From Methanoregulaceae archaeon PtaB.Bin056 (GTDB lineage Archaea > Halobacteriota > Methanomicrobia > Methanomicrobiales > Methanospirillaceae), in the NCBI GenBank assembly GCA_002067095.1, contig MVQD01000035.1, positions 1 through 64,000 on the forward strand: a DNA stretch of 64,000 bases. Reading direction: 5' to 3'. The position numbers were made by a program, and so were the translations under genes. Under the pieces are notes generated by a model, which saw only the letters and a list, made by a program, of their open reading frames with translations, was not told where the DNA came from and did not search any database. The stretch's first letter is position 1. Every line of letters starts with the position of its first letter. Shown here piece after piece: positions 22,421-43,981 of the stretch.

Positions 22421-22424
22421 AGTG

Positions 22425-23645: not shown

Positions 23646-24310
23646 GCGACCACCCTCCCGTCGCGCATCTCGATGGTGCGGTCGGCGTAGGATGCGAGCT
23701 CCCGCTCGTGCGTGACGACAAGGAGCGTCACCCCGCGCTCGCGGTTGAGGCGCTGCAGAAGCGAGAAGATCCCCTCGCTCGTGGCAGAGTCGAGGTTTCC
23801 GGTCGGCTCGTCCGCGAGGATGAGGGGGGAGTCGGCCACGAGCGCCCGGGCGATTGCCACACGCTGCTGCTCGCCGCCGGAGAGCTGGCCCGGGTAGTGG
23901 GACGCCCGGTCCCCGAGCCCCACCATCGCGAGGAGCGCATTCGCCTTCTCCTGCCGCTCTGCCGGCGGGCGGTAGTTGAAGAGGAGGGGGTACTCGACAT
24001 TCTCCCTGGCGGTGAGCGAAGGGATGAGGTTGAACTGCTGGAAGACGAACCCGACCATCTCTCTCCTGAACGAGACAAGGGCTCTCCGGTTGGAGAAGTC
24101 GAGCAGGGTGCCGTTGACTGCGACCGATCCCTCGCTCGGAGCGTCAAGGCCCCCGACGATGTTGAGGAGGGTGCTCTTTCCGCTCCCGCTCCTCCCGATG
24201 ACTGCCACGAACTCCCCTCTCCCGAGCCGGAGGTCGACTCCTTCGAGCGCCCTGACACCTCCTGGATAGTGGCGGGAGAGTCCCCGGGCCTCGAGGATCG
24301 GGCTGCTCAT
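23642..24310 (-). CDS. LolD/MacB-type ABC exporter ATPase
   Basis: This ATPase has 222 residues. It shows Walker A GRSGSGKST, the Q-loop region FVFQQFNLIPSLTARENVEYP characteristic of the LolD/MacB/FtsE group, signature LSGGEQQR, Walker B LILADEPTGNLDS and the H-loop TH in LLVVTHERE. The start overlaps the preceding DUF3344 gene stop (ATGA) and the stop overlaps the permease start. The exporter and surface proteins are therefore made from one transcript. Confidence 0.92.
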   Translation of the reverse strand: MSSPILEARGLSRHYPGGVRALEGVDLRLGRGEFVAVIGRSGSGKSTLLNIVGGLDAPSEGSVAVNGTLLDFSNRRALVSFRREMVGFVFQQFNLIPSLTARENVEYPLLFNYRPPAERQEKANALLAMVGLGDRASHYPGQLSGGEQQRVAIARALVADSPLILADEPTGNLDSATSEGIFSLLQRLNRERGVTLLVVTHERELASYADRTIEMRDGRVVA

Positions 24311-27058: not shown

Positions 27059-27497
27059 GAGTAGTAGTAGGGGAGGAAGAGTATTAACATTGTGACTTAA
27101 TGTCATCCCCCTTCAAACCTGTGAGGATAATCTTCTTAGAGACATGGAAAAGAACTTCAAAAAGTCGAAAATTTTGTAAAAAAAATTTAAGAATTTGTAA
27201 AATATGATATGAAAACTATATGAATAATACAAATACAATTAATATTTAGTAAAAATTATATTTACACAGATAATTTTTTAAAAAATTCCTTGTTTTAAGC
27301 TATTATTTTGATTTGACAGCCGAATTGCACGATTTACCTTTAATCTTAAATACAATAAAATAGCATAATGTATTACAAAGAAAAAACAAAGTAACACTAT
27401 CTGTTAATAATCAGCGATAGATCATAACATTTATCAGTTTTTACAACTCATGCGCACTCATACCCGCGGAATGCCACCCGCGGATGGAGTACTGTCT
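27059..27497. promoter_or_regulatory. A/T-rich divergent promoter region between two surface operons
   Basis: This region of about 440 bases is far richer in A/T than the genes on both sides and contains no gene. Several TATA-like runs are present (for example around 27200-27265 and 27345-27370). A perfect 16-base palindrome of A and T runs lies at 27272-27287 (AATTTTTT/AAAAAATT). It must hold the promoters of the minus-strand exporter operon and the plus-strand WxL-like operon; exact sites cannot be assigned. Confidence 0.5.
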
Positions 27498-29714
27498 ATG
27501 AAGACTCTGATTATTCTGGGCATTCTTGCCCTGATGATGCTCCTGGTGATCCCGGGAGCGGTATCGGCTGCGGACCTGAGTGTGTCCGGCAGCGTTGTGG
27601 ATGAAGATCTTACCGTGACTGCTCTTGCAATCAACCCCGGCTCATCAAGCGGCCATGATGTGATTAGCGCGAACGAGCCGAACACGCTCCGCGCCACGGT
27701 TGCGAACACCGGCGGCCTCGCTGCAGGTGCCTTTGACGTAACGATGGTCATCGGCGCCTTCACCCAGACTGTCCGGGTAACGGGTGGCCTTGCCGCGGGT
27801 GCGACCACCACGGTGGACTTTACTGGGTACGCCCCCACGACCATCGGCGACGTGACTGTTGTGGTGACTGCCGATTCGAGCTCTGAGATTGCAGAATCGA
27901 ACGAGGCCAACAACGTGCTCTCGCAGGTAAAGACCGTGTACTACAACGGGTACAAGGGCAAGCGCTTCACCGCGGGCAACGATTTCACGACTGTTGACAC
28001 TTACAACGGCCGTGTCGGTATCGTGTACTCGACCGGGAACGCAGCGTATAAGGGAGCTCCTGCCGTGAATACCACGAGTAGTTACTCCGCCAGCTTCACT
28101 GCCGCTCCTACAGGGGCGAACCTGAACATCCCTTCCGGTGCCACGATCCTCTCGGCCCGGCTCTACCAGCCCACCAACTGGGACCAGACCTCTGGTGAAG
28201 ACGCAGCCGCCCTCTGGACGGCGATTTTCAATAGCGGTTCTCCATTGACCCCGACAACGACCTACACCGATAGGAAGGGATACGGTGGCTACAACTTCCC
28301 GTCAAAACTCTATATGTATGATGTCACCGGCGCATTCGATGCTGATGGAACTAACACCTGGAGCCTCACTTCCGGATCCAACCTGAACGTCGCCCTCTAC
28401 CCCACGTACATGGTCGTCGTCTTCCAGGACGCTGCAACCCAGACCGAGAAGACGATCTTCATCAATGATGAAACCGATCTGCTCTATTCCAAAGCGTCGT
28501 ACAATACCAATGATGCGGAAGCAACTGCTTACGCGACCTTCACTGGTGTTGACATAACTGGCATGGGAAGCGCAAAGGCCATCGCCTTCGTCGCCGCTGT
28601 GAACGAGGACGGGGACAGCAAGTTCTATTTCAACAATGTTGTCTACGATGACTTCTACATCGATAGCACTAAGAGCACCGCCAATACGGTATCTATCAAA
28701 GAGTTCACCCTTACCAACGTTGCCAGCGGAAACAACGAAGCGAAACTCCAGAGCGCTGCTGTTACCGCTGATGGTGACAATATGCAGGCCCAAAACGTGA
28801 TCCTCGTCATCGAGAAGAGCGAGGGCGCCGTTGACATCACCGACTTCACGGCAACACCGGCATCCGGAGACGCACCGCTCGATGTTACCTTCGCAGCCAC
28901 GACCACCGGCAATGTGATCGGCTATGCATGGGACTTCGACAACGACGGCGACACGGACAGCACGGACCAGAGCCCGACCTACACGTACAGCACGCCCGGC
29001 GTCTACTCGGTAAAGCTGACCATCACCGGTATCAGCAGCTCGGACACGATGACCAAGACCGACATGGTCACCGTCAAGACCCCGGCACCGAACGTTGACT
29101 TCACCTACTCCCCGGCCAGCGGCGTTGAACCGCTCCTCGTTGACTTCGACGCAACGAACACCGGCGGGGCCGTGACTTCCTGGAAGTGGGAGCGCAGCGA
29201 TGACGGAGGCACGACCTGGACACAGTTCGCGACCACAGAGGATGTTACCGCTGCTTCATTCAATGATGGTACCTGGTCCGTCCGTGTCACCGCAACCGGC
29301 CCCGATTACTCCGACACCGAGACCAAACTGAACATCATCGAGGTCGGTGCGTCCACCATGGTCATCACCGTGACCCCGGCATCCATCGACTTCGGCACCA
29401 TGCAGGCCGGCGTTGACGAGACCGGCAGCAGCACGGTGAGCGTGGACGTCACTGGCGGCACCGCATGGTCCGTAGAGGCATCCGCTTCCAACTTTGGGTA
29501 CATGACGACCGGCACGGTGAACCTTGCGAATCCGTTCCAGCTCTCGAACGACGGCACGAACTTCCAGGCAATGACCTCGGACTTCTCCGACTTCCTGACC
29601 GGCGCGGCGGGAGTTGACGGGAGCGATACCGCAGATGTCAAGCAGGCGATTGCCGCGGCCGATGCACCGGGCAGCTACACTATCACGCTGACCTTCACCG
29701 GCTCCATGGCCTGA
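27498..29714 (+). CDS. CARDB-DUF3344-PKD surface protein ending in a WxL-like domain
   Basis: This secreted protein has 738 residues. The signal peptide ends VIPGAVSAAD. A CARDB domain (~25-150) is followed by DUF3344 (~150-440, opening NGYKGKRFTAGND, with IFINDETDLLY), two PKD domains (~445-615, the first with YAWDFDNDGDTDS) and a C-terminal domain of ~120 residues. That domain begins VTPASIDFGTMQAG, contains WSVEAS, and ends YTITLTFTG. Its strand order, single Trp motif and terminal position resemble the Gram-positive WxL domain with Leu replaced by Val. The ATG at 27498 has ATGGAG upstream. The next gene encodes the likely membrane partner. Confidence 0.85.
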   Translation: MKTLIILGILALMMLLVIPGAVSAADLSVSGSVVDEDLTVTALAINPGSSSGHDVISANEPNTLRATVANTGGLAAGAFDVTMVIGAFTQTVRVTGGLAAGATTTVDFTGYAPTTIGDVTVVVTADSSSEIAESNEANNVLSQVKTVYYNGYKGKRFTAGNDFTTVDTYNGRVGIVYSTGNAAYKGAPAVNTTSSYSASFTAAPTGANLNIPSGATILSARLYQPTNWDQTSGEDAAALWTAIFNSGSPLTPTTTYTDRKGYGGYNFPSKLYMYDVTGAFDADGTNTWSLTSGSNLNVALYPTYMVVVFQDAATQTEKTIFINDETDLLYSKASYNTNDAEATAYATFTGVDITGMGSAKAIAFVAAVNEDGDSKFYFNNVVYDDFYIDSTKSTANTVSIKEFTLTNVASGNNEAKLQSAAVTADGDNMQAQNVILVIEKSEGAVDITDFTATPASGDAPLDVTFAATTTGNVIGYAWDFDNDGDTDSTDQSPTYTYSTPGVYSVKLTITGISSSDTMTKTDMVTVKTPAPNVDFTYSPASGVEPLLVDFDATNTGGAVTSWKWERSDDGGTTWTQFATTEDVTAASFNDGTWSVRVTATGPDYSDTETKLNIIEVGASTMVITVTPASIDFGTMQAGVDETGSSTVSVDVTGGTAWSVEASASNFGYMTTGTVNLANPFQLSNDGTNFQAMTSDFSDFLTGAAGVDGSDTADVKQAIAAADAPGSYTITLTFTGSMA

Positions 29715-29786
29715 AGGGACTGCTGAGGTGATCTTCCCCCCAACACTTTTTCCGGGTATTCCCCGGGAAAACTGCTACAGGATGCT

Positions 29787-30770
29787 ATGGACCGGAGCAA
29801 TGATTCCCCTATGAACCGGAACACCCCTACCTACATCTGCCTCGTCGCGCTCGCGCTCCTTATCGCTGGAGCCTTGCTCGTATCGCCAGCCATTGCGCTC
29901 AAGGTCGAAGGGGCCCGCATTGCCCTCGATGTCGAGCCCGGAAAGACCTACACGTCCCCCCTCGGGATCTCAATTACGGCAGAGGAATCGGGAGGGACAT
30001 TTGCCATCGATGTAATGGGGTTTGGCCAGGCTCCCACGGACGGAAGTTATACCGCGCTTGACGCGGCTGCGGACACGAGTCCCTACTCAGCACGACCGTT
30101 CATCACCATCGATAAACCGACCGTGACCCTGCAGCCCGGAGAAAGGGCGGCGGTGACGGCAACGATAAACATTCCTTCCGGAACACGCGACGGCGGCCGG
30201 TACGCTATCATCCTGGTCCACCCGGCGGCTTCTGCCTCCGGTGCACCGGCATCGTTTGCCACCGCGGTGGCAATTCCGGTGCTGCTCACCGTCAAGAGCG
30301 GGACCATCACGGAAACCGGTCAAATCTCCGCGGTGGAGCCACCGGTTACCGAGGTCGGAAAACCCTTTGAGGTGAAGACGACTTTCCAGAACTCCGGAAA
30401 CTACCACTACTACGGCGCGGTGCACAACGTGACCATCACCGACACGCAGGGAACATTGGTCGCCTCGGTGAAATCGGAACCGTTTGTCCGGGCCATCGTG
30501 CCGGGGCAGTCGGTCACGTTCACGGCGTCCGTCGCCAATGGTCTCCCGCAGGGATCCTACCAGGTAACGGCACGGGTGGAGAAGCAGGACGGCAAGGTCC
30601 TTGCCGAGAAAAAGGCGACCCTGCAGGCAGGAAGCCCGCCAACAACCCAGGCAACCACAGTCGCTCCGAGCAAGGGCTTACTTCCCGGGTTCGGGACCCT
30701 GCTGACGCTGATGGGACTGGCCGTGGCCTTCTTCGGGGTGCTCCGGGTCCGGAAGGGAGGAACAGGATGA
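29787..30770 (+). CDS. WxL-interacting-protein-like membrane-anchored surface protein (DUF916/DUF3324 layout)
   Basis: This protein of 327 residues has a signal peptide (~18-38), two beta-sandwich domains, and a C-terminal helix (LLTLMGLAVAFFGVL) with a basic tail. The first domain has SPYSARPFITIDKPTVTLQ followed by PGERAAVTATINIPSG and RDGGRYAIILV; this is the pattern of DUF916, the first domain of bacterial WxL-interacting proteins. The second domain (SGNYHYYGAVHNVTITDTQG through VPGQSVTFTAS to GSYQVTARV) follows the DUF3324 layout. Length and topology match bacterial WxLIPs. Archaea of this group lack peptidoglycan, so its ligand would differ. The start has AGGA upstream. It sits 72 bases after its proposed partner. 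Confidence 0.8.
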   Translation: MDRSNDSPMNRNTPTYICLVALALLIAGALLVSPAIALKVEGARIALDVEPGKTYTSPLGISITAEESGGTFAIDVMGFGQAPTDGSYTALDAAADTSPYSARPFITIDKPTVTLQPGERAAVTATINIPSGTRDGGRYAIILVHPAASASGAPASFATAVAIPVLLTVKSGTITETGQISAVEPPVTEVGKPFEVKTTFQNSGNYHYYGAVHNVTITDTQGTLVASVKSEPFVRAIVPGQSVTFTASVANGLPQGSYQVTARVEKQDGKVLAEKKATLQAGSPPTTQATTVAPSKGLLPGFGTLLTLMGLAVAFFGVLRVRKGGTG

Positions 30771-30927
30771 GAGGATGATGAAGAAAGCACATCGACACCG
30801 GAATCACCATCCTCCCTTCTTTTTCTCGCTGGGGCGGCAAGGCAAACAAGCCATCGCCAGAAATGGTAGGATGCTGTCCACCAAGGAAGATCACCTGCAT
30901 TGTCATGAAAAATTACGAGGATAACCT

Positions 30928-33900
30928 ATGCAACGAATAACGAAAAAACTGAAATGGGGTCCTGCAGTCGTCATCCTACTGTTCCTGCTCTGCCTCATCG
31001 GAACGGCTGCAGCCGACAACTACGTCGGAGGGCAACTGCTCACAACGGTGCAGTCCGGCACGGTCTCCGGGGGGTTGTACATGGACGATGACATTTCGGG
31101 TCCGTACGTCAATAACCTGACCAAGACCTTTTCACCCATCCCGAACGTGGACAGCATCCAGTGGGCCCGGCTCTACGTCTCCGCGTACAGCGGGCAGATG
31201 CAGGAGGCGAGGGTTCTCGAGGTCACCACAAAGTGGGATGGCAACAATGACGGGGACTGGGTCGATGCCGAGGACAGGACCTGGACCGAGGGCCCGTATA
31301 ATACCATCTTCACTTACAAGGTGAACGGCGGGAACGACAATACCGCCCAGGGCGGGGGCGCACACGACCCCTACCTGATCATAAACGACCACACGAACCG
31401 GGTGACGAGCGATTACCTGATGTGGTATGATGTCACCAACCTGATCACCAACTCCACCCCCACCGTTAACGTTGATGCCTCAGCCAGCTACGACGGCCGT
31501 ATCAAAGTGATCACCCTCATCGTGGCTTACAACGATGGTGATACGGATAACATCCGTTATTGGGTGAACCAGGGCCACGATGTGGACTCCTATTACTCTG
31601 AAGAGGACTACATCGGGTCGACCGCCTTCAGCCTCTCCGGGATTTCCGGCACCGTGAATGCCGCCACCCTCAAAGTGAACCACATGGCGAGCACGGACGG
31701 GACCTACAAATGGAGGGGGAATCCCATCTCCAATAGCACGCCGGAAGAATGGCAGGGGGGATATTCTGGGGGGAACACCTGGGACGTGACCTCCACGGTG
31801 CAGCCCGGGCAAAATAACGCCCTGACCTACAACCGGAGCGCTGATTTCTACAAGATCGCCCTTGCAACCCTCGAGGTAGACATTACAGAAGGCACGGTGG
31901 TAGCTCCGGTCGCGGCCTTCAGCTTCTCACCGGAAACCGGGGATGCCCCTCTCACGGTCCAGTTCACGGACGAGTCCACGAACTCCCCAACGGAGTGGTT
32001 CTGGGATTTCGGCGATGGTGAATTCAGCGCGGACCAGAACCCCAGCCACGAGTTCGTGAGGGCCGATACCTATACGGTGAGCCTGACCGCGACGAACTCC
32101 GCAGGTGAGGACACCGTGACGCACGACATCACCGTCACCTCGATGTGGAGGGCGAAGGCGGTGTGGAATGCACCCGACCCGGGATCGCTTACCGCCCCCT
32201 GCCTGGTCGACCTCGACAACGATGGAGACTACGACCTGCTGACCGGTGAGAATAGCGGGTTTTCCTATGCTTTTGAGAACACCGGGACCCTCACGAGCCC
32301 GGTCTGGACTGGAAAATCCGCATGGAACGTCCCGGATATCGGGGCGCGGGCAAAGCCGGCGGCTGCCGACCTTGACGGTGACGGGGACTTCGACCTCATA
32401 GTGGGTTCAACAGCGGGAACATCCTACGGGTATCAGAACACCGGTTCGGCAACGGGCCCCAGCTGGACCACCAACACCTCGTGGAACGCACCGGATATCG
32501 GGACCTATTCCGCACCGGCGCTCGCCGACCTGGACGGCGACGGGGACTACGACCTCCTGATCGGTTCGAGTACCGGCAACTGCATTGGCTACGAGAACAC
32601 CGGGTCGACATCTGCTCCGGTATGGAGCAGGAAAGCGGAGTGGGATACTCCTGATGTGGGATCGAATTCGGTACCGGCTTTCCTCGACATCGACGGCGAT
32701 GGAGACCTTGATCTGCTCATTGGTGACATCTCCGGCGTTTCCTTTGGCTTCGAGAACACCGGGACCGCAGCAAGCCCCGCGTGGACCGCAAAACCGGCAT
32801 GGGACGTGCCGGTTATCGGCACTGAGGCAGCCCCCGGCCCGGCCGACCTTGACAACGACGGTGACTTTGACCTCCTGGTCGGTTCCAACGCAGGGACACC
32901 CTATGGCTACGAGAACACCGCACCCCCGCTGACAGGCTGCGACCTGACCATTGCCGGCACCGTGAACGTTGCCCCCCCTGCCGTCCTCTTCGCCCGGGAG
33001 ACAAACAGCGTCCGGATCGCCTCCATCACGAACAACGGCCCGGGCACCTCCCCTGCAACCGAGGTTCTCCTCACGTCCAGTGACGGGTTCAGCGGACGGG
33101 TGGCCGTGCCATCGCTTGGCAAGAACGAGGCAACGACCGTCACCATCCTCGACACCACCATCCGGGACACCGCAGGAGGCTCGGTGACCTACACCGCCAC
33201 CGTTGACCCGGACAATGACATCCCTGAGACGAACGAAGGGAACAACGAAAAAGCCAGCGCAGCAAAGACCGTCACCTACAATGGCTACAAGGGCAAACGC
33301 TACTGGGAAGGCAAGAGCGACATCACCACCAAGAAGACCTTCGATCTCCACGGCGGTATTATTTACTCATCTGGTGATAGCGCGTATAAGTCAGGAGGTA
33401 CGGGTGGTGGTTCCTGGAACGATTATACAGTGACCTGGACAAGCAGCGACCTTGAGTTGCCATCCGGAGCAACGGTCCGGGAAGTCCGTCTCTACGTCCC
33501 GTACACGTGGGACAATACGGGCGAGGTCCCCGACCGGTTCAGCGCGACATTCAACACCCACCTTCTCCCTGAAGATACCCTGTACACCGACAAGAGCAAC
33601 TTCGGAGGGTATGTGAATCACGTCTACGGCCTCCTTGCCTACAACGTGACGGATTACTTCTCCACCAGCGGCAACAGCGTCGTCATCCACAAGGATGTGG
33701 CAGACAGCAACCTCGCCATGACCGGCCTTACTCTCGCAGTGATATACGAGAAGGCCGGTGAACCGCGCCGCCAGATCTTCCTGAACGAGGAGTGCGACAT
33801 CCTGGGCGCGGACGAGACCGGGTATGCGACAACCCCCGACGAAGCGACCGCTTACGTGCCCTTCGATGGGATGACCATTACCCCTGACGATGCCACTCAC

Positions 33901-34521
33901 GCCTACCTGACCACCTTCGTCGTCTTCGGGAATGGACCCGAGGGCAACCTGCTCTGGAACGATGAGACGATTGCCACAAATGTCTGGGACTTCGGGTCCA
34001 CCGAGGGGACGCAGGTTGCTATCGACACCCGGGACGTGAAGGAGTCCCTTCTCGCAACCGGGAACGAGGCCGGGATCCGGAGCACGCCGGGAGCCACGCC
34101 GTTGATGGCCGCGAGCCACTCCTTCCTCGTGGTGGAGTACGCCGCGGCTCCGGCCACCATCGAGGTCACCCTGGGTGAGACGAGCGTCTCACTGAGCCCC
34201 ATGATCGCCGGCCAGGACGCCACGAACTCGACCACGGTGACAGTCTCCGTAGAGAACAGCAACAATTGGGATGTCACGGCATCGGACGGGAAGACCACGA
34301 ACAAGGGCTTCATGGTCAACGGGACCACGCCGCTCGCGAACCCGTTCGAACTGGGAAAGGATGGTGCTGCGTTCAAGGCACTAACGTCCGACTATACGGC
34401 CTTCATGACCGGGACCACCTCGGGAGAGACGGCAACGGCCAGCCTGAAGCAGCCGGTCGTCTCCGGGGATGCGGTCGGTGACTATGGTATCACTGTGACC
34501 TTCATGGGGTCGATCTCATGA
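30928..34521 (+). CDS. DUF3344-PKD-FG-GAP-CARDB-DUF3344 surface protein with WxL-like C-terminus
   Basis: This secreted protein has 1197 residues. The signal peptide ends IGTAAAD. Domains in order: DUF3344 (~31-320, YVGGQLLTTVQSGTVSGGLY), PKD (~327-400), five ~50-residue FG-GAP/VCBS-like repeats (~405-660) each with a calcium-type loop such as DLDGDGDYDLLIG, CARDB (~669-780), DUF3344 (~785-1070, NGYKGKRYWEG) and a WxL-like domain (~1076-1197) with NNWDVTAS and a YGITVTFMG end. GAGGAT precedes the ATG. Its stop overlaps the next start as ATGA. Inferred role: large adhesin or ligand-binding surface protein held through its C-terminus. Confidence 0.85.
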   Translation: MQRITKKLKWGPAVVILLFLLCLIGTAAADNYVGGQLLTTVQSGTVSGGLYMDDDISGPYVNNLTKTFSPIPNVDSIQWARLYVSAYSGQMQEARVLEVTTKWDGNNDGDWVDAEDRTWTEGPYNTIFTYKVNGGNDNTAQGGGAHDPYLIINDHTNRVTSDYLMWYDVTNLITNSTPTVNVDASASYDGRIKVITLIVAYNDGDTDNIRYWVNQGHDVDSYYSEEDYIGSTAFSLSGISGTVNAATLKVNHMASTDGTYKWRGNPISNSTPEEWQGGYSGGNTWDVTSTVQPGQNNALTYNRSADFYKIALATLEVDITEGTVVAPVAAFSFSPETGDAPLTVQFTDESTNSPTEWFWDFGDGEFSADQNPSHEFVRADTYTVSLTATNSAGEDTVTHDITVTSMWRAKAVWNAPDPGSLTAPCLVDLDNDGDYDLLTGENSGFSYAFENTGTLTSPVWTGKSAWNVPDIGARAKPAAADLDGDGDFDLIVGSTAGTSYGYQNTGSATGPSWTTNTSWNAPDIGTYSAPALADLDGDGDYDLLIGSSTGNCIGYENTGSTSAPVWSRKAEWDTPDVGSNSVPAFLDIDGDGDLDLLIGDISGVSFGFENTGTAASPAWTAKPAWDVPVIGTEAAPGPADLDNDGDFDLLVGSNAGTPYGYENTAPPLTGCDLTIAGTVNVAPPAVLFARETNSVRIASITNNGPGTSPATEVLLTSSDGFSGRVAVPSLGKNEATTVTILDTTIRDTAGGSVTYTATVDPDNDIPETNEGNNEKASAAKTVTYNGYKGKRYWEGKSDITTKKTFDLHGGIIYSSGDSAYKSGGTGGGSWNDYTVTWTSSDLELPSGATVREVRLYVPYTWDNTGEVPDRFSATFNTHLLPEDTLYTDKSNFGGYVNHVYGLLAYNVTDYFSTSGNSVVIHKDVADSNLAMTGLTLAVIYEKAGEPRRQIFLNEECDILGADETGYATTPDEATAYVPFDGMTITPDDATHAYLTTFVVFGNGPEGNLLWNDETIATNVWDFGSTEGTQVAIDTRDVKESLLATGNEAGIRSTPGATPLMAASHSFLVVEYAAAPATIEVTLGETSVSLSPMIAGQDATNSTTVTVSVENSNNWDVTASDGKTTNKGFMVNGTTPLANPFELGKDGAAFKALTSDYTAFMTGTTSGETATASLKQPVVSGDAVGDYGITVTFMGSIS

Positions 34522-35693
34522 GGAGCCAGGACCGGGCAGGGAGCATCATCGCTCCCCTCGCCATCCTCATCGCCCTGGCCCTGCTTGCCACCCCTGCCCT
34601 CGCAGGGAACACCGTCACCTTCACCGGCGAGATCACAGCAGTTCCTGCACCGGTCGCCCAATTCACCGGCTCGCCTCTCTCCGGCACCGCTCCGCTCACT
34701 GTGGCCTTCACGGACCAGTCGACCGGCTCCATCACGGCATGGGCCTGGGACTTCGACAACAACGGCGTCGATGACAGCAACGCCCAGAACCCGAGCTACA
34801 CCTACACCACGGCCGGTGCCTACACCGTGAAGCTCACGGTCACCGGGCCGGGCGGGACCGATGACGAGGTGAAGGTGAATTACATCACGGTAACCGCGCC
34901 GGTTAAACCAGTCGCGGCATTCATCGCCACACCGACATCCGGTTACGCACCGCTCACTGTCCAGTTCACTGATCAGTCTACAAACAACCCGACCTCCTGG
35001 AAGTGGGAGTATAAGAAAGGTTCGGGCAGCTGGACGCAGTTCTCGACAGTGCAGAACCCGTCCTACACCTTCACCGCGACCGGGACTTACAGCATCCGCC
35101 TGACGGCAACCAATGCCGCAGGGAGCAACACCCTGACAAAGAGCAGTTACATCACGGTCAGCAAACCGATCAAGCCGGTAGCCGCGTTCACGGCAACCCC
35201 GACGAGCGGCCTACCCCCGCTTGTCGTGCAGTTCACCGACCAGTCAAGCAACTCCCCTACCTCGTGGAAGTGGGAATACCAGAAATCGGGCACCAGCAGC
35301 TGGGTCCAGTTCTCAACGGAACAGAACCCGTCCTATACCTTCACCACGGTCGGCAAGTACAGCATCAGGCTGACGGCCACTAACTCTGCGGGGAGTAACA
35401 CCCTGACCAGGAGTAACTACATCCGGGTCGGACAGTGCGGACTGGTGATAGCATCGTTCACCGCATCACCGACGAGTGGAACAAAACCATTGACCGTCCA
35501 GTTTACTGATAAGAGCTACGGCCCCGTCGATACATGGGAATGGGACTTCCAGAACGACGGGACATGGGACAGCACGCTCCAGAACCCATCCTTCACCTAC
35601 ACGAAGAAGGGGAAGTATTCCGTGAAGCTGAGGGTCACAAACGCCTGCAGTTCGAGCACGATGATTCGTTACAGCTACATCAATGTGCAGTAG
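34518..35693 (+). CDS. Secreted protein of four PKD domains
   Basis: This protein has 391 residues. A signal peptide ends LATPALAGN, followed by a short strand (NTVTFTGEI) and four PKD domains at ~44-126, ~127-220, ~222-310 and ~312-391. Each has the SGxxPLxVxFTDQS opening; the first and last have the classical WDFDN or WDFQNDG turn, the middle two a longer WKWEY turn. No anchor or enzyme domain is seen. Its start overlaps the end of the WxL-like protein gene, so they are co-translated. Likely a structural or spacer surface component; PKD domains usually mediate protein or carbohydrate contacts. Confidence 0.85.
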   Translation: MRSQDRAGSIIAPLAILIALALLATPALAGNTVTFTGEITAVPAPVAQFTGSPLSGTAPLTVAFTDQSTGSITAWAWDFDNNGVDDSNAQNPSYTYTTAGAYTVKLTVTGPGGTDDEVKVNYITVTAPVKPVAAFIATPTSGYAPLTVQFTDQSTNNPTSWKWEYKKGSGSWTQFSTVQNPSYTFTATGTYSIRLTATNAAGSNTLTKSSYITVSKPIKPVAAFTATPTSGLPPLVVQFTDQSSNSPTSWKWEYQKSGTSSWVQFSTEQNPSYTFTTVGKYSIRLTATNSAGSNTLTRSNYIRVGQCGLVIASFTASPTSGTKPLTVQFTDKSYGPVDTWEWDFQNDGTWDSTLQNPSFTYTKKGKYSVKLRVTNACSSSTMIRYSYINVQ

Positions 35694-35859
35694 CTTTAGG
35701 AACATCCGGCCATGGCCGTCACTGCGGAAATACGGGAGATGAGGAGGGAATTTCCTCCCTCTCACCTTCACCTGAGTACACCAATGAAGAGCCGGAAATA
35801 TGGAGCCATCCCTGCATGATATCCGCAAGAATTCCCATGGTAAGACCAGGTGTGGTACC

Positions 35860-36825
35860 ATGATCATGTCCCGAACCCCCCATTCAGCCCTGAGCGTCAT
35901 TCTGGTACTCCTTTCGGTCATCTGCACGGTTGTGGGAATAGCTGGTGGTCTGTCGGTCGAACCTGGCAGGATTGAGCAGGACATCGGGCCGGGAGGCACG
36001 TGGACCGGGACAATCGTCCTTTCCACGAGTCCCGATGAAACGGATGGATCATTCGCCATCGAAGTTTTAGGCCTCGGGCAGTCACCCCTGGACGGGTCCT
36101 ATCTTGTCCTCGGGGAACCGGAGGACACCAGTCCCTACAGTGCACGGCCGTTTTTAAGCGTCAATGCATCTCGCGTCAATCTCAACCCCGGCGACCATGC
36201 CGGGATCCTTGCAACCGTAAGAATACCCGATAGCGAGAGGGATGGTGGCAGGTTCGCGGCAATTGCCGTCCGGAATGTCACACCGGCCACGGGAGAGCCG
36301 GACGGCGACCTCATGGCACTTATCCCTGTCTTCCTCACCCTCCAGGGGGGAAATATCACAAAGACCGGGGAGATCACCGCACTTGAGTTCACAGAGTCCA
36401 CAGGGAGTGGAGGGGCCATGATTGCCACCTGGTTCATGAACACCGGTAACCACCAGATCGAAGGGGCGCTGAACAGGGTCACCATCAAGGACAGGAATGG
36501 TGTCGTTTTTACAAGCGTGGCGACCGACCCCTTGGACCAGGCACTCATCCCGGGCCAGGAGACGCGTTTCACGGTATCCGTCGATAAGAGTCTTCCTGGT
36601 ACAGAATACGTCCTCACGACCCGGATCGAGAAGAAGGACGATGTGCTGCTGGCAGAACAGGACGAAATACTGCCCGGGATCGGACGGGAAGCCGAGGTAC
36701 AGGACAGCCAGCCTTCCATGGAAGGTGTCCTCCCGACCATGAGAGTCCCCGGATTTTATGCGGGCGCGGCATTGCTTGCGGTTTTTCTGGGAATCGCTGG
36801 CCTGATAAGGAAAGCCACACCATGA
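35860..36825 (+). CDS. Second WxL-interacting-protein-like membrane-anchored protein
   Basis: This protein of ~321 residues is clearly homologous to the one at 29787. It has a signal peptide (ALSVILVLLSVICTVVGIAGG), a first domain with DTSPYSARPFLSVN, LNPGDHAGILATVRIP and RDGGRFAAIAV (DUF916-like), and a second domain with MNTGNHQIEGALNRVTIKDR and IPGQETRFTVSV (DUF3324-like). It closes with a C-terminal helix (YAGAALLAVFLGIAGLI) and basic end. AGGTG lies upstream of the ATG at 35860. It follows the second WxL-like protein and its PKD partner, repeating the arrangement of the first cassette. Membrane anchoring is predicted; the ligand is unknown. Confidence 0.78.
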   Translation: MIMSRTPHSALSVILVLLSVICTVVGIAGGLSVEPGRIEQDIGPGGTWTGTIVLSTSPDETDGSFAIEVLGLGQSPLDGSYLVLGEPEDTSPYSARPFLSVNASRVNLNPGDHAGILATVRIPDSERDGGRFAAIAVRNVTPATGEPDGDLMALIPVFLTLQGGNITKTGEITALEFTESTGSGGAMIATWFMNTGNHQIEGALNRVTIKDRNGVVFTSVATDPLDQALIPGQETRFTVSVDKSLPGTEYVLTTRIEKKDDVLLAEQDEILPGIGREAEVQDSQPSMEGVLPTMRVPGFYAGAALLAVFLGIAGLIRKATP

Positions 36826-36982
36826 GCCATCCCATGATCGGACAACCAACCATAACCAGAAGGAATCTGGTGCATACGCTTGGCTACTGTCCGAAAGAAT
36901 TATCAGTTTTGGTATGTATTATCATCACAAACGTGATATCAGGACAGCAGATATATCGCAATACCTGGGGAGCTGAGATTCG

Positions 36983-37633
36983 ATGAGAACGTGGATGGGA
37001 TTTCCTGCACTTGCCATCATCACGGTCCTCCTCCTCTCCCTGCCCGCACTCCCGGTTCTTGCGGGAAATACCCTCACCGTATCCGGTGAGATCGTCGGCA
37101 CGCCCGGCCCCCGGGCAGATTTCTCCGCAAGCCCTCTTGCAGGGAACCCTCCGCTCCTCGTGAAATTTTCCGACCGGTCGACCGGGACGGTCACCTCGTG
37201 GGCATGGGACTTCCAGAACGACGGGACAATCGACCGCCGGACCAGGAACCCATACTTCCTCTATACAAGGGCCGGGACGTACACCGTGAGCCTCACCGTT
37301 TCAGGTCCGGACGGCACCGACAGTGAAGTCAAGACGGGGTATATCACGGTTGGTTCGGGACCGACCGGGAAAAAACCCCTCGCCCTGTTCACGCAGGACA
37401 GATACTTCGGTATCACCCCCCTCACGGTGAAGTTCACCGACCGGTCGCGAGACAACCCGACGGAATATCTCTGGAACTTCGGGGACGGCGGCACATCGAC
37501 CGAGCAGAACCCTCAACACACCTACACCCTCGCAGGACTCCATACGGTCAGTCTCCGGGTCTCAAACGCGTACGGGAGCAGTACTGCGACGAGCATGGTG
37601 ATTGCGATTGACAACCTGTGGTGGAGACGGTAA
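36983..37633 (+). CDS. Secreted protein of two PKD domains
   Basis: This protein has 216 residues. The signal peptide ends LPVLAGN, then a short NTLTVSGEI strand shared with the four-PKD protein at 34518, and two PKD domains (~35-120 and ~128-205). The first has WAWDFQNDGTID; the second opens FTQDRYFGITPLTVKFTD and resembles the last PKD domain of the 1936-residue protein at 38171. No anchor. It is the last gene of the WxL-like cluster. Confidence 0.82.
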   Translation: MRTWMGFPALAIITVLLLSLPALPVLAGNTLTVSGEIVGTPGPRADFSASPLAGNPPLLVKFSDRSTGTVTSWAWDFQNDGTIDRRTRNPYFLYTRAGTYTVSLTVSGPDGTDSEVKTGYITVGSGPTGKKPLALFTQDRYFGITPLTVKFTDRSRDNPTEYLWNFGDGGTSTEQNPQHTYTLAGLHTVSLRVSNAYGSSTATSMVIAIDNLWWRR

Positions 37634-38170: not shown

Positions 38171-41100
38171 ATGAATGATAAGAGTACTCTATCTACCCAA
38201 TATGTGAGATCCCTCACCATCATACTCCTTCTCACCCTCTGCCTCGTTCCCTGCACTTCCGCAGACGGGTACGTAGGAGGGATCCCGCTCAGCACCGTCC
38301 AATCCGGCACCGTGTCCGGCGGGCTCTACGTCGATGCCGAAGTCCCCTCGTGGGGATCGACGGATGTCACAAAGACGTTTGCACCCATCCCATCTGTCGA
38401 TGACATCGAGTGGGCCCGGCTCTATGTCTCTGTCTATTGCGGGCACATGCAGAATAACTACCGCGGCACTGCGACCGTCTCGTTCGACGGTGTCGGTGAC
38501 GGCCTGTCGTGGATCGTGGTGGGCACCGAGGCCCTCGACACCCCTGGCGGCTACACATACCCGGGCGAGGGAGGCTCGGGGGCGGTAACGGTAAACGACC
38601 ACTGCAACAGGGTGACGAGCGACTACCTGATGTGGTACAATGTGACTCCCCTCATTGTCTCAAAGACCCCGAAGGCAAGGGTCGTGACCCAGAAGACCGA
38701 TGGAAGTTTCGACGGCCGGATCAAGATGATCACCCTCGTCGTCGCGTATAACGATGGCGACACTGACGAGGTATGCTACTGGGTGAACCAGGGGCATGAC
38801 GTGGATTCGTATTACGCGGACGACGCCGGCATGCCGTATACCGGCCAGACAATCTTCGACCTTTCTTCTGTCGCCGGCGATATCGATAACGCAACCCTTG
38901 TCGTCAACCACCTGGCAAGCAGCGACGGGACCTACGCCTGGAACGGCGACCCGATCCCGACCGACCCCTCCGGCGGGAACTCCCAGGGGGCATTCTTCGG
39001 GTACAACACCTGGGACCTGACTTCCGTGGTCATTCCCGGCGAGTCGAACGACCTCGCGTATAACCGGACCGGCCAGTTCTACAAGGTCCCACTCGCCGCC
39101 CTTTCGGTGGAGAAGTCATCCACGCCGCCCGGAGACCTCGAGGTCACGTTGGTGAACCCCGTGACCGGGAATGTCTTTGCAAAAGAGCCGAACACCGTCC
39201 GCATCACGGTGAAGAACAACGGTGCGGAGCAGTCCACTCCGACAGAGGTCCGTCTCACCGCATCGGACGGCTTTGACGGCCGCGGAAGCGTCCCCTCCAT
39301 CCCCTCCGGGCAGACGACGATCGTCTCCGTGACCGACACCACCGTGCGGAACCTCGCCGGCGGGACAGTGACGTACACCGCAGCAATCGACCCCGACAAC
39401 CTCGTCCCCGAGACAAACGAAGGGAACAACGTGAAGGACAGCACAGGAAAGACTGTCCGCTACAACGGCTACAAGGGAGCCCGCTACTGGGAAGGGAAAA
39501 GCGACCTGCTCACATCCCGGGCCTTCGATCTCCACGGCGGCCTCCTCTTCTCCCCGGGAGACAGCACGTACAGGGCCGGCGGCGTGGGAGGGTCGGGCTG
39601 GTCCTCCTACACGGTGACCTGGACCGGGACAGACCTCCCGCTCCCGCCCGGCGCAACGGTCCGGGAAGCGAGGCTGTATGCCCCCTATACCTGGGACGAT
39701 TCGCAGCAGGTCCCGGACCACTTCCACCTCACCTTCAACGGGAACGCAATGGCCCATGAGGCGCACTATACCGACCAGAGCAACTTCGGGGGCTATGCAA
39801 ACCACCTGTACGGCCTCCTTTCCTACAACGTGACCCAATGGTTTGACCCGGCAGGAAATACCGCACTGCTCACAAAGGACAACTCCAATACCAACTTCGC
39901 CATGTACGGGCTGACCCTTGCCGTCGTCTACGAGGACTCCTCTGCTTCCCGGAAACAGGTATTCCTTAACGAGGGCTTCGACATCCTTGGCGCGGACGAG
40001 ACCCAGTACGGCACCACGCCCGAGGAGGCCACCGCGTACCTCCCGTTCTCGGGGATGGCAATCTCCCCGGGGGACGCAGCCCACGCGTACCTGACCACCT
40101 TTGTCCCGTCCGGAAACGGTCCTGAAGGCGACCTCCTCTGGAACGACGTTACCATCGGGACAAACGTCTGGGACTACGGTCAGTCTTCGGGGACCCAGGT
40201 CGCGGTGGATACCCGGGACGTGAAGAGCTCCCTGCTCGCCTCCGGAAACGAGGCGGGAGTCCGGAGCACTGCAACAGGGGCGACCCCCCTGATGGCCGCC
40301 TCCCATGCATTCCTGGTCGTCGAGTATGCTGAAGCCGGCCCGATCGCGGACTTTTCCGCGAACACCACGTCTGGGACTGCACCCCTCACGGTCGAATTCA
40401 CGGACCAGTCTTCGGGAACGGTCACCGCGTATGCCTGGGACTTCCAGGACGACGGGGTCATTGACAGCACCGACCAGAACCCGACCTACACCTACACCGC
40501 TGCCGGCACCTTCACGGTGAACCTCACGGTCAGTGGACCGGGCGGGTCTGCAAGCGAAGTCAAGACCGACTTCATTACCGCGACCGGGCCTTCTTACCCG
40601 GACCTCGTCATCACCCAGATTACCACAAATGGAAACGAGCTCTTCGCGCATGAATACAATACCATCAACGCCACGGTGAGAAACAACGGAACGGCAGCGG
40701 CAGGACCGTTTACCGTCCGGATCGACGCAGAGGGGGCGGTGTATGACACCATCGTCCCGGGCCTTGACCCCGGGGCACAGCAGGAAGTGCAGGCGACCGA
40801 CACCACGCTCCGGACCGCAGGCGATCTTATCACCATCACCGCGACCGCGGATCCCGACCTTGCAGTCGTGGAATCCGACGAGACCAACAACGCACTCTCC
40901 CTCACGAAGACCGTGGTGAACAACGGGTACAAGGGGAAGCGCTGGACCGACGGGTCCGACCTTGAGACCGTCGCGACCTTTGCTGGTCGCTACGAGGTCG
41001 TGTACTCTGCCGGGGACTCTGCCTACCGGAGTGCAAAGTGGCTCTCTGCGACCGTCAACTGGACGGCCGCAGACCTGCCGGTCCCGGCCGGGGCGACCAT

Positions 41101-43981
41101 AATCGACGCCCGGCTCTACCAGGCATATTCCTACAACAAGATGGGCACAGACCCCGCGTTTGCCGCATCCTTCAACGGTAATACGGTGTCACCCGCGGCA
41201 ACCTACATGGACATCAAGGGATACGGCTCCTACAATTACCCCTATGGCCTCTACGTGTATGATGTGACCGACCTCTTCGACACTGAAGGAAACACTCTCG
41301 TCCTGACCCCTGAAGGGACCCCCGGGACAACGAACGACTACGCACTCTACGGCGCATACCTGGTGGTCACCTACGGCGACCGTGCCGCGACAGAGAAGCA
41401 GATCTGGATCAACGAAGAGTTCGACATGCTGTATTCCGGGTCCGCCCGATCGGTGACTTCTGACGAGGGGACCGCGTACGCGGTCTTTGCTGGCGTCGAC
41501 ACGGCCGGCATGGCCGGTGCAGAGGCGGTCGCGGTCCTCGCAAGCGCCGGGGACGCAGGCAAGAGCAGGTTCTTCTTCAATGAGGACGAGTACACCGGCT
41601 TCTGGGCAGACTACCTTGCAACCCCGCAGATAGGGTTCTCGGTCTACGACGTGACCGGCGCTATTTCGAGCGGCGGTAACACCGCCCGTCTCCAGAGCTA
41701 CGACTCAGGGAGCGGCGGCGACAACATGTACGCCATGACCACCATCCTGATCGTGGAAAAGACCGAGCCCGGCATCATTGCCGACTTCAACGCGACCCCG
41801 CGCTCCGGCGCAGCCCCGCTCGAGGTCGCATTCACTGACGAGTCCTCGGGAACGGTCACCGCGTATGCCTGGGACTTCCAGGACGACGGGGTCATTGACA
41901 GCACCGACCAGAACCCGACCTACACCTACACCGCTGCCGGCACCTTCACGGTGAACCTCACGGTCAGTGGGCCGGGCGGGTCTGCAAGCGAGGTGAAGAC
42001 CAATTACATCACCGCAACCGGGCCTTCCCACCCGGACCTCGTCATCACCCAGATTACCACCAATGGAAACGAGCTCTTCGCGCACGAGTCAAATACCATC
42101 AACGCGACGGTGAGAAACAACGGAACGGCAGCGGCTGGGCCATTCACCGTCCGGATCGACGCGGAGGGGGCGGTGTATCACACCATCGTCCCGGGCCTTG
42201 ACCCCGGGGCACAGCAGGAAGTCCAGGCGACCGACACCACGCTCCGGACCGCGGGCGATCTCGTCACCATCACCGCAACCGCGGATCCCGACCTTGAAGT
42301 CGTGGAATCCAACGAGACCAACAATGCTCTCTCCCTCACGAAGACCGTGATGAACAACGGGTACAAGGGGAAACGCTGGACCGATGGGTCTGACCTTGGG
42401 ACCGTCGCGACCTTCGAAGGGAGAGGAGGACTGGCATACTCGACCGGCGATGCCTCATACCGGGCGGCGGGATGGAGTACTGCGACCACGAACTGGACCG
42501 CATCAGACCTGCCCATCCCCGGGACTGCGACAATCCTCCATGCCCGGCTCTACCAGGGATACACCTACGACCAGACCCCGGGGGGAAGCCCCGTATGGAC
42601 ACTGCAGTTCAACGGCCAGGAAGTGACCCCTGTTGCCACCTACACTGACCGGAAAGGATACGGCAGCTACAACAACCCCTCCGGTCTCCTTGTCTACAAC
42701 GTGACCGATCTCTTCGATAAGGCAGGAAACACGCTCACGGTCACCCCGGGGGCCGGGAACAACAACGGTCTCTACGGCAGCATCCTCGTCGTTGTCTACC
42801 AGGATAGCAGTGAACCGGTCAGGAAGATCACCATCAACGAGGAGTGCGACATGCTCTACGCGGGTGCGGCCCGGTTCGCATCCGACGAGGAGGCGACTGC
42901 CTATGCGCCGTTTGGAGGCGCGGCGATATCCGACCTGGAAGAAGCGAGCGTCCTTTCCATCCTCTTCTCTGCAAACGAGGCAGGAAAGAGCGCGTTCATC
43001 TTCAACGGCCAGGACTACGGCGACTTCTCGTCAGGGTACCTGGCAGGGCCGCAGGTGACGCTCAAGGAGTTCGACGTGACCGACGAGGTCGCCGCTGGAG
43101 AGAACACTGCGCTGTTCCGCAGTGTTGCGGTGGGTGCGAGTGGTGACAACATGGTCGCCGCAGGCGCCATATTCGTGACAGAATACACCGAGGCCCCACC
43201 GGTTGCCGCGTTCTCTGCCAGCCCCACCTCAGGTACTGCCCCTCTCCAGGTGCAGTTCACTGACCAGTCGACAGGGACCGTCACCGAATGGGTGTGGGAG
43301 TCCCGCCCCGAGAGGGGGGTATGGGCACAGTTCTCGACAGCACCCAATCCTTCGTATACGTTCACCAGTACCGGGACCTACGACATCCGGCTCACCGTCC
43401 GCGGGCCGGGCGGGGAATCAACCGAGGAGAAAGCAGGGTATATTTCGGTGCTCTCTCCGGGCGGCCTGCGTGCGGACTTCTCCGCGACCCCTACCTCAGG
43501 GGGTGCTCCGCTCTCTGTCAGGTTCACTGACCAGTCGACGGGAACCGTCACCCTTCGGACCTGGGACTTCAATAACGATGGAAAGTGGGACAGCATATCC
43601 AAAAACCCCACCTACAGGTACTGGAACCCCGGCGTCTACACGGTGCGGCTCGGCGTGAGCGGCCCCGATGGATCCGACGAGACGACCAGGCAGGATTACA
43701 TCACCGTGACCGCGCCTCCAAAGCCGCCGGTGGCACGGTTCACGCAGGACACGAAGTTTGGGAATGCACCGCTCACGGTCCGGTTCACTGACCTCTCGAC
43801 AGGGTCTCCCGAGTCCTACCTCTGGACGTTTGGTGACGGGGGGTCCTCGACAGACAAAAACCCCGTCCACACCTACCAGGCGCCCGGGCTGTACCGGCTC
43901 ACCCTGCGGGTCGAGAACGAGGGCGGAAGCTCCACCGCGAGCGGGTTTGTCTACGTGATACGGGCCATCAGGCCATACTAA
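38171..43981 (+). CDS. Giant modular DUF3344/CARDB/PKD surface protein
   Basis: This secreted protein has 1936 residues; the signal peptide ends PCTSADGY. Domains in order: DUF3344 (~33-310, YVGGIPLSTVQSGTVSGGLY), CARDB (~322-425), DUF3344 (~430-720), PKD (~725-805), CARDB (~810-915), DUF3344 (~917-1195), PKD (~1201-1280), CARDB (~1288-1390), DUF3344 (~1395-1665) and three PKD domains (~1676-1930). The PKD-CARDB-DUF3344 unit occurs twice in tandem with nearly identical PKD-CARDB DNA. Unlike the proteins at 27498 and 30928 it ends in PKD, not a WxL-like domain, and has no membrane anchor. Function unknown; probably a surface adhesin or sheath component. Confidence 0.85.
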   Translation: MNDKSTLSTQYVRSLTIILLLTLCLVPCTSADGYVGGIPLSTVQSGTVSGGLYVDAEVPSWGSTDVTKTFAPIPSVDDIEWARLYVSVYCGHMQNNYRGTATVSFDGVGDGLSWIVVGTEALDTPGGYTYPGEGGSGAVTVNDHCNRVTSDYLMWYNVTPLIVSKTPKARVVTQKTDGSFDGRIKMITLVVAYNDGDTDEVCYWVNQGHDVDSYYADDAGMPYTGQTIFDLSSVAGDIDNATLVVNHLASSDGTYAWNGDPIPTDPSGGNSQGAFFGYNTWDLTSVVIPGESNDLAYNRTGQFYKVPLAALSVEKSSTPPGDLEVTLVNPVTGNVFAKEPNTVRITVKNNGAEQSTPTEVRLTASDGFDGRGSVPSIPSGQTTIVSVTDTTVRNLAGGTVTYTAAIDPDNLVPETNEGNNVKDSTGKTVRYNGYKGARYWEGKSDLLTSRAFDLHGGLLFSPGDSTYRAGGVGGSGWSSYTVTWTGTDLPLPPGATVREARLYAPYTWDDSQQVPDHFHLTFNGNAMAHEAHYTDQSNFGGYANHLYGLLSYNVTQWFDPAGNTALLTKDNSNTNFAMYGLTLAVVYEDSSASRKQVFLNEGFDILGADETQYGTTPEEATAYLPFSGMAISPGDAAHAYLTTFVPSGNGPEGDLLWNDVTIGTNVWDYGQSSGTQVAVDTRDVKSSLLASGNEAGVRSTATGATPLMAASHAFLVVEYAEAGPIADFSANTTSGTAPLTVEFTDQSSGTVTAYAWDFQDDGVIDSTDQNPTYTYTAAGTFTVNLTVSGPGGSASEVKTDFITATGPSYPDLVITQITTNGNELFAHEYNTINATVRNNGTAAAGPFTVRIDAEGAVYDTIVPGLDPGAQQEVQATDTTLRTAGDLITITATADPDLAVVESDETNNALSLTKTVVNNGYKGKRWTDGSDLETVATFAGRYEVVYSAGDSAYRSAKWLSATVNWTAADLPVPAGATIIDARLYQAYSYNKMGTDPAFAASFNGNTVSPAATYMDIKGYGSYNYPYGLYVYDVTDLFDTEGNTLVLTPEGTPGTTNDYALYGAYLVVTYGDRAATEKQIWINEEFDMLYSGSARSVTSDEGTAYAVFAGVDTAGMAGAEAVAVLASAGDAGKSRFFFNEDEYTGFWADYLATPQIGFSVYDVTGAISSGGNTARLQSYDSGSGGDNMYAMTTILIVEKTEPGIIADFNATPRSGAAPLEVAFTDESSGTVTAYAWDFQDDGVIDSTDQNPTYTYTAAGTFTVNLTVSGPGGSASEVKTNYITATGPSHPDLVITQITTNGNELFAHESNTINATVRNNGTAAAGPFTVRIDAEGAVYHTIVPGLDPGAQQEVQATDTTLRTAGDLVTITATADPDLEVVESNETNNALSLTKTVMNNGYKGKRWTDGSDLGTVATFEGRGGLAYSTGDASYRAAGWSTATTNWTASDLPIPGTATILHARLYQGYTYDQTPGGSPVWTLQFNGQEVTPVATYTDRKGYGSYNNPSGLLVYNVTDLFDKAGNTLTVTPGAGNNNGLYGSILVVVYQDSSEPVRKITINEECDMLYAGAARFASDEEATAYAPFGGAAISDLEEASVLSILFSANEAGKSAFIFNGQDYGDFSSGYLAGPQVTLKEFDVTDEVAAGENTALFRSVAVGASGDNMVAAGAIFVTEYTEAPPVAAFSASPTSGTAPLQVQFTDQSTGTVTEWVWESRPERGVWAQFSTAPNPSYTFTSTGTYDIRLTVRGPGGESTEEKAGYISVLSPGGLRADFSATPTSGGAPLSVRFTDQSTGTVTLRTWDFNNDGKWDSISKNPTYRYWNPGVYTVRLGVSGPDGSDETTRQDYITVTAPPKPPVARFTQDTKFGNAPLTVRFTDLSTGSPESYLWTFGDGGSSTDKNPVHTYQAPGLYRLTLRVENEGGSSTASGFVYVIRAIRPY
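40412..40980 (+). repeat. Intragenic repeat, copy 1 (PKD-CARDB part)
   Basis: This ~569-base segment matches 41846-42414 with an offset of 1434 bases (478 codons, in frame), differing at only a few dozen positions by eye. It covers the end of a PKD domain, the CARDB domain and the start of DUF3344. The rest of the DUF3344 modules that follow has diverged much more. Confidence 0.85.
41846..42414 (+). repeat. Intragenic repeat, copy 2 (PKD-CARDB part)
   Basis: Second copy of the segment at 40412-40980. The strong DNA identity, including synonymous positions, points to recent duplication or ongoing gene conversion. Confidence 0.85.

Follow-up and report, generated by a model that had tools for sequence, protein, structure and literature searches.

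How does an archaeon keep large secreted proteins at its surface when these proteins carry no anchor of their own? The question is raised by a gene cluster at positions 27,498–37,633 of a 64,000-nucleotide stretch of DNA (the window; contig MVQD01000035.1) from the Methanomicrobiales methanogen Methanoregulaceae archaeon PtaB.Bin056. A preliminary description of the locus had likened it to the Gram-positive system of WxL domains and WxL-interacting proteins (WxLIPs). By profile comparison and predicted fold, the two membrane-anchored products of the cluster are relatives of WxLIP. Their genes form a conserved module with genes for secreted proteins that end in a ~122-residue C-terminal domain (CTD), for which modelling predicts a pilin-like fold. 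Short gene names used here are start positions of open reading frames (ORFs).

The genes of the cluster are co-directional, in the order CTD protein 1, WxLIP-like protein 1, CTD protein 2, a four-PKD protein, WxLIP-like protein 2 and a two-PKD protein, with successive gaps of 96, 157, −4, 166 and 157 bases (Table 1). The two large secreted proteins (27498 and 30928) were confirmed as ORFs ending in related domains of about 120 residues, as first described. CTD1 and CTD2 are 42–44% identical, and each contains one central Trp (WSV and WDV, respectively) and a Y-x-I-x-[LV]-T-F motif ~11 residues before the stop. The statement that each large protein is followed by a WxLIP-type protein holds for the first pair but not for the second, where the four-PKD gene intervenes. 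WxLIP-like proteins 1 and 2 share 38–41% mutual identity, and hydropathy bears out that they have the sole C-terminal hydrophobic anchors in the cluster: the best 19-residue values outside the signal peptide are 2.02 and 2.11, whereas none of the other five proteins exceeds 1.43.

An AlphaFold model containing the WxLIP-like protein was compared with 350,542 PDB chains using Foldseek. Enterococcus faecium WxLIP occupied ranks 1–3 (9i25_C, 9i1y_B and 9i1y_A; E 3.9e-11 to 1.5e-10). These structures were released in January 2026; one of the three entries is described as bound to a long WxL, and 9i25 is a solved complex. Further down the list were the pilus chaperones CfaA, Caf1M, CsuC and FimC. 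A bacterial profile was built from seven DUF916/DUF3324 proteins of lactic acid bacteria and enterococci, which are encoded on named plasmids and were checked via their cluster context. The archaeal profile aligned with it at 95.6% probability (hhalign, E 1.1e-8, 213 columns), with both domains colinear. Controls gave 2.9% (reversed), at most 0.4% (shuffled), 0.6% (five Escherichia coli K-12 PapD-type chaperones), 17.5% (PKD tandems) and 0.3% (CARDB/DUF3344).

Both methods indicate that the order of DUF916 (PGBD) followed by DUF3324 (HBD), each immunoglobulin (Ig)-like, is kept. Pfam WxLIP_PGBD (PF06030) matched 9 of 24 family members (best E 1.9e-4) and WxLIP_HBD (PF11797) four (best E 0.0077), all below the cut-off, as were both proteins of the window. 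A search of all PDB sequences with the family profile returned only two matches, both EfmWxLIP1 (E 0.21). Inspection of the alignment showed that the NQIDKxxxYFDLK motif near the N-terminus of WxLIP is not kept; a V-x-PG strand (LDVEPG) stands at the corresponding place. The DUF916/DUF3324-type layout proposed earlier for the 29787 and 35860 proteins thus agrees with the fold search, the controlled profile comparison and the cluster layout, and in Pfam with sub-threshold matches only.

The preliminary description had named pairing in other archaeal genomes as a test, and the result is strongly in its favor. A search with WxLIP-like protein 1 through 150 genomes of the order found relatives in 23, and a single-sequence search with CTD1 found eight genomes, each of which also has a WxLIP-like gene. 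Profiles run over 393 genomes of the phylum detected a strong WxLIP-like gene (E < 1e-40) in 20 and a strong CTD in 14, all 14 being among the 20; a local search found the CTD in three more genomes with a WxLIP-like gene. Immediately upstream of the WxLIP-like gene, on the same strand and within 300 bases, there is a CTD gene at 30 of 40 non-identical loci as counted by script, and at 32 when L058 (an over-extended ORF) and L044 (a CTD cut at the contig end) are included. Two further loci are second WxLIP-like copies in CTD-bearing clusters (that of the window and that of L121); at L048 the CTD genes are convergent beside the WxLIP-like gene, and at L147 the CTD lies further downstream.

The relatives include Methanolinea, Methanoregula, Methanoculleus and Methanocella, and the adjacency spans several family-level groups; searches of plasmids and viral contigs turned up no relatives. 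Many loci encode one small CTD protein (150–240 residues) and one large one. In bacteria, the combination of small and large WxL proteins defines the WxL cluster (PMC10599100). The bacterial order of small WxL, WxLIP and large WxL is matched by the archaeal order of CTD, WxLIP-like and CTD. The CTD/WxLIP-like pair is a conserved gene module.

The whole arrangement of the window recurs in Methanocella sp. PtaU1.Bin125 (L121), where a CTD protein, a WxLIP-like protein (61% identical to WxLIP-like protein 1), a second CTD protein, PKD proteins and a second WxLIP-like protein follow one another. Since this genome lies outside the order of the window, the recurrence suggests that the block was transferred horizontally. 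Elsewhere in the phylum, other families have a NEW3/WxLIP-like protein adjoining secreted proteins with a different beta domain at the extreme C-terminus (VP.GT..GdY.G.i.l near the end; Table 1). This domain aligns colinearly and weakly with the CTD (probability 16%, P 0.0016, 112 columns), and the arrangement may represent a second form of this pairing.

The two domains of the window seeded an iterative search of neighboring loci by profile, which converged at 30 and then at 57 CTDs. All 57 lie at the extreme C-terminus of their host proteins, which range from about 140 to about 1500 residues, and the domains are about 122–160 residues long. Q102 is invariant (57/57) and Y113 nearly so (56/57). 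The shared domain is thus beyond chance. The Tyr lies 11 residues from the C-terminus in 46 of the 57; in bacterial large WxL proteins, Y-x-T-x-L-x-W lies 12–14 residues from the end. That the spacing to the end of the chain is so constant suggests a last strand that may be read by a partner, as it is in pilins.

The AlphaFold model of the CTD (57 sequences) has a predicted local distance difference test score of 95.6 and a predicted template-modelling score (pTM) of 0.86. In a Foldseek search of the PDB with this model, ranks 1–13 were pilins (probability 1.00, TM-score 0.44–0.64; best E 4e-3, none below 1e-3), including the chaperone-usher pilins CsuA/B, CfaB, FimG and PapE, with TasA only at rank 33. 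Direct family searches (Pfam, PDB sequences) with the CTD found nothing, and hhalign found no match to E. coli K-12 pilins. On the strength of the model, we assign the CTD a pilin-like fold.

The preliminary description had taken this domain to be WxL, a membership for which our comparisons give no support. The Pfam WxL model (PF13731) matched in none of 295 genomes, and none of 30 CTDs had a WxL match at E ≤ 1. Whether trimmed or not, and whether full-length or split into halves, the CTD and WxL profiles did not align significantly, the full-length score equalling that of the PKD control. The one exception is that the first half of the CTD finds its best profile match in the first WxL motif (weak, P 0.007). 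A Trp occupies the first W motif in 47 of 57 CTDs, followed two residues on by V (38), I (10) or L (8), so that eight have a literal WxL. The second motif is missing: only two of the 57 have a Trp within the last 16 residues. The Asp(W−8)/Arg(W−6) pair is absent from the CTDs, the two columns holding V/L/I and V/T/A, respectively. Among the 50 best structural matches listed for the CTD, which are headed by chaperone-usher pilins, the solved WxL chain 9i25_A does not appear. Because the profile comparisons are not significant, we do not claim homology of the CTD with WxL; the CTD remains its functional and positional counterpart.

Methanogens of the Methanomicrobiales are not known to have peptidoglycan. 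The anchoring target is probably the cytoplasmic membrane, since in both proteins of the window a PGF motif precedes the final helix and the genome encodes archaeosortase A (model TIGR04125, 278 bits). Both proteins and their closest relatives share this order of PGF, hydrophobic helix and basic tail, and 36 of the 40 loci encode a C-terminal transmembrane helix. The tails score weakly against PGF-CTERM models (TIGR04126 matches one of 24 members) and other relatives have ordinary transmembrane tails, so we put forward lipid attachment as a proposal only.

We favor, with moderate confidence, the view that the cluster corresponds, in archaea, to the WxL/WxLIP surface system of Gram-positive bacteria, with the WxLIP-like protein tethering the pilin-like CTD. 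The WxLIP-like protein would be exported and kept outside the cytoplasmic membrane by its C-terminal helix; in the clade of the window this helix is probably a PGF-type signal, which archaeosortase A would exchange for a lipid. The two Ig-like domains, in a WxLIP-type arrangement, would bind the CTDs of the secreted neighbors, most likely through a WxLIP-like beta strand that completes the CTD sandwich. The large DUF3344/PKD/FG-GAP proteins, themselves anchorless, would thereby be folded and held at the cell surface, the WxLIP-like protein acting as a tether and not as an assembly chaperone only. We infer contact between the CTD and the WxLIP-like protein, reasonably so because AlphaFold work predicts that a WxLIP strand completes the WxL sandwich (PMC10599100) and a bacterial complex has been solved (9i25).

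Several observations weigh against this view. Archaeal NEW3-like surface proteins match the WxLIP-like profile at 97–98%. The family may therefore not be strictly WxLIP but an archaeal branch within a wide superfamily; for the anchored protein, the best reading is membership of a single superfamily whose nearest solved member is WxLIP. A fusion model of CTD1 and the WxLIP-like protein, obtained by reading through two in-frame stop codons (both as Gly), gave good domains at a pTM of 0.62 and no interface measure. Four loci of the Methanoregula group (L052, L056, L059 and L060) have a WxLIP-like gene with no CTD neighbor. At four loci of one other family (L122–L125), the WxLIP-like proteins are 266–273 residues long, stop right after the second domain and have no anchor helix, and anchoring is therefore not universal. 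Several small CTD genes flank these four, a layout that a soluble chaperone would be expected to show.

The unpaired Methanoregula-group genes lie in conserved surroundings: a 401-residue membrane protein (TraB-like by reading) and a 504-residue transporter-like protein are encoded just upstream of them. At L122–L125, a repeat protein of 1095–1351 residues is encoded close by. We weighed, and set aside, the idea that the true parent family of the WxLIP-like proteins is that of the archaeal COG1361/NEW3-like proteins: the two are related, yet the WxLIP structures remain the best solved matches.

The NEW3 kinship, stronger than the match to WxLIP, would fit a more ordinary account in which a NEW3/COG1361-like, surface-layer-associated Ig protein and an unrelated beta-sandwich CTD are co-regulated and do not bind directly; the weak Pfam matches of the family to fn3_5, NPCBM_assoc and CARDB would fit as well. 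We regard this as improbable, given the immediate adjacency seen in several family-level groups (about 32 of 40 loci), the lack of any strong-CTD genome without a WxLIP-like gene, the three best structural matches being WxLIP, and the fixed C-terminal register of the CTD. At the opposite pole, the CTD may be a strongly diverged but homologous WxL, the cluster sharing its origin with bacterial csc clusters. This possibility is compatible with the tether mechanism and differs in claiming common descent. The C-terminal position, the W motif, the best match of the first half, the Y-x-x-x-[LVI]-T-[FW] end with a spacing similar to that of bacterial WxL, and the pairing with a WxLIP relative beside small and large partner genes all speak for it. 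With the Pfam model silent, the full-length comparison no better than the PKD control, the second Trp and the Asp/Arg pair gone and 9i25_A outside the 50 best matches listed, common descent strikes us as a serious contender that is nonetheless rather unlikely.

The pilin-like fold opens a further alternative, a chaperone-pilin system that works without an usher. The WxLIP-like protein would cap the CTD until the N-terminal strand of another subunit replaced it; the product would be a fibre or complex built by donor-strand exchange, with small CTD proteins as pilins, large ones as FimH-like adhesins and strand-only PKD proteins as end pieces. The CTD sits C-terminally as the pilin domain of FimH does, and the small CTD proteins consist of a signal peptide, a short N-terminal strand and the CTD. 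In many CTD proteins and neighboring CTD-less PKD proteins, a short alternating strand begins at the signal-peptide cleavage site (examples are GNTVTFTGEI, ADVTVSGSI and AESDTITVTGSI). The motif occurs in 16 of 46 CTD proteins (1.8 expected after shuffling) and in 16 of 73 secreted neighbors versus 4 of 92 distant proteins, those four not having it at the cleavage site on inspection.

By analogy with pilins, these counts raise donor-strand exchange between cluster products without proving it. The anchorless WxLIP-like proteins flanked by CTD genes would fit too, and donor-strand assembly has already been shown in archaea for archaeal threads (PMC9715654). Most WxLIP-like proteins, however, have a permanent anchor, many members lack the N-terminal motif, neither partner has detectable sequence kinship with PapD chaperones or E. 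coli pilins, and the genome has neither usher (PF00577) nor PapD-family chaperone (PF00345); the fibre itself is a prediction. We consider this alternative unlikely. A broader version, in which WxLIP-type membrane-bound chaperones serve the CTDs, the mature N-terminal strands of neighbors plug in, and Gram-positive WxL/WxLIP, archaic chaperone-usher pili and the archaeal system are branches of one strand-complementation principle, is slightly more doubtful still.

Around the cluster, three more secreted proteins without a CTD, DUF3344-related in appearance on inspection, are encoded upstream on the minus strand (18,824–27,106), as is an ABC transporter pair that by reading resembles MacB/FtsX (22,425–24,310, minus strand). 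Short PKD proteins have Trp-rich ends (NLWWRR, NAPWWFQ and NRWWWWWH; window positions 37,600–37,633 and orthologues in L042 and L043). A match to the bindosome protein BasC (NCBIfam, E 0.0071) was taken as chance.

Table 1. Features of the cluster and its neighborhood in the window, and loci elsewhere in the phylum (positions given in the locus named)
Feature	Position	Strand	Basis or remarks
Secreted protein 1 (738 residues)	27498..29714	+	Signal peptide, CARDB, DUF3344, PKD, PKD-like, CTD1 (predicted pilin-like)
Strand-like motif ADLSVSGSV, protein 1	27570..27596	+	Right after predicted cleavage site; motif enrichment; putative donor strand
CTD1, all-beta C-terminal domain	29340..29711	+	AlphaFold model; best PDB matches are chaperone-usher pilins
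WxLIP-like protein 1 (319 residues)	29811..30770	+	Signal peptide, two Ig-like domains, PGF motif, C-terminal helix, basic tail; ORF 29787–30770, 29811 being the better start
Two-domain region of WxLIP-like protein 1	29901..30635	+	Aligns with bacterial PGBD and HBD (hhalign, Foldseek); limits approximate
PGF-type C-terminal tail of WxLIP-like protein 1	30684..30767	+	PGF, hydrophobic helix, RVRKGGTG
Secreted protein 2 (1197 residues)	30928..34521	+	DUF3344, PKD, FG-GAP repeats, CARDB, DUF3344, CTD2 (predicted pilin-like)
CTD2, paralogue of CTD1	34141..34518	+	Sequence and profile comparison
Secreted four-PKD protein without CTD	34518..35693	+	Start overlaps stop of protein 2; mature N-terminus GNTVTFTGEI
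Strand-like motif GNTVTFTGEI, N-terminus of four-PKD protein	34605..34634	+	Motif enrichment; putative function
WxLIP-like protein 2 (321 residues)	35860..36825	+	Layout as WxLIP-like protein 1; VPGF motif before final helix
Secreted two-PKD protein without CTD	36983..37633	+	Mature N-terminus GNTLTVSGEI; C-terminus NLWWRR
Strand-like motif GNTLTVSGEI, two-PKD protein	37064..37093	+	Motif at mature N-terminus
Giant DUF3344/CARDB/PKD protein without CTD	38171..43981	+	Neighbor of the anchored set
NEW3/WxLIP-like locus, L126	4661-5917	-	Beside different C-terminal beta domain
NEW3/WxLIP-like locus, L127	2876-4159	+	Beside different C-terminal beta domain
NEW3/WxLIP-like locus, L129	5203-6438	+	Beside different C-terminal beta domain

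The system appears to be undescribed in the open-access papers searched. A way of building a surface that was thought to be bacterial appears to have an archaeal relative, one that offers methanogens a possible route to display large anchorless DUF3344/PKD proteins. In the literature on bacterial WxL, the partner of WxL is described as a peptidoglycan-binding protein. The occurrence of a WxLIP relative in peptidoglycan-free organisms, with a pilin-like partner, suggests that holding a C-terminal beta domain is the older, general function and that peptidoglycan binding is later or secondary. Archaeal donor-strand assembly without an usher becomes a testable question through one defined protein pair.

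Compared with known systems, the CTD resembles WxL (PF13731), which a survey called exclusively bacterial (PMC9772566), in its place at the very C-terminal end of secreted proteins both small and large, in its central Trp motif and aromatic C-terminal strand motif, and in its WxLIP-type partner. It differs in having no second WxL, usually W-x-V at the first, no Asp(−8)/Arg(−6), a shorter length and no significant profile match. The anchored protein shares with Gram-positive WxLIP (PF06030, PF11797 and a transmembrane helix) the signal peptide, the order of Ig-like domains, the C-terminal helix and basic tail, and a gene neighborhood with small and large secreted partners that bear a beta domain at the C-terminus. 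Unlike WxLIP, the archaeal proteins are sub-cut-off in Pfam, lack NQIDKxxxYFDLK and carry a PGF-type tail in the clade of the window; some members have no helix, others have an extra domain ahead of it, and peptidoglycan is not expected.

The likeness to chaperone-usher systems (archaic Csu, CFA/I, type 1) lies in the pilins as best structural matches of the CTD, the pilus chaperones that the WxLIP-like protein also matches in structure, and a C-terminal pilin domain on a large protein, as in the FimH adhesin; the N-terminal motif resembles the pilin N-terminal extension of E. coli FimA (GGTVHFKGEV). The archaeal partner is in contrast membrane-anchored, there is neither usher nor outer membrane, and sequence kinship with PapD or E. 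coli K-12 pilins is lacking. Archaeal threads (Saci_0406) and TasA/TapA fibres, in which TapA is reported to act as a chaperone for TasA (PMC10151520), likewise use extracellular donor-strand complementation outside the chaperone-usher pathway, in sequence families and gene neighborhoods unlike those of the CTD system. With PGF-CTERM/archaeosortase A anchoring, the WxLIP-like proteins of the window share the PGF motif, helix and basic tail as well as an encoded enzyme; what would set them apart is that the sorted protein itself is proposed to hold other secreted proteins.

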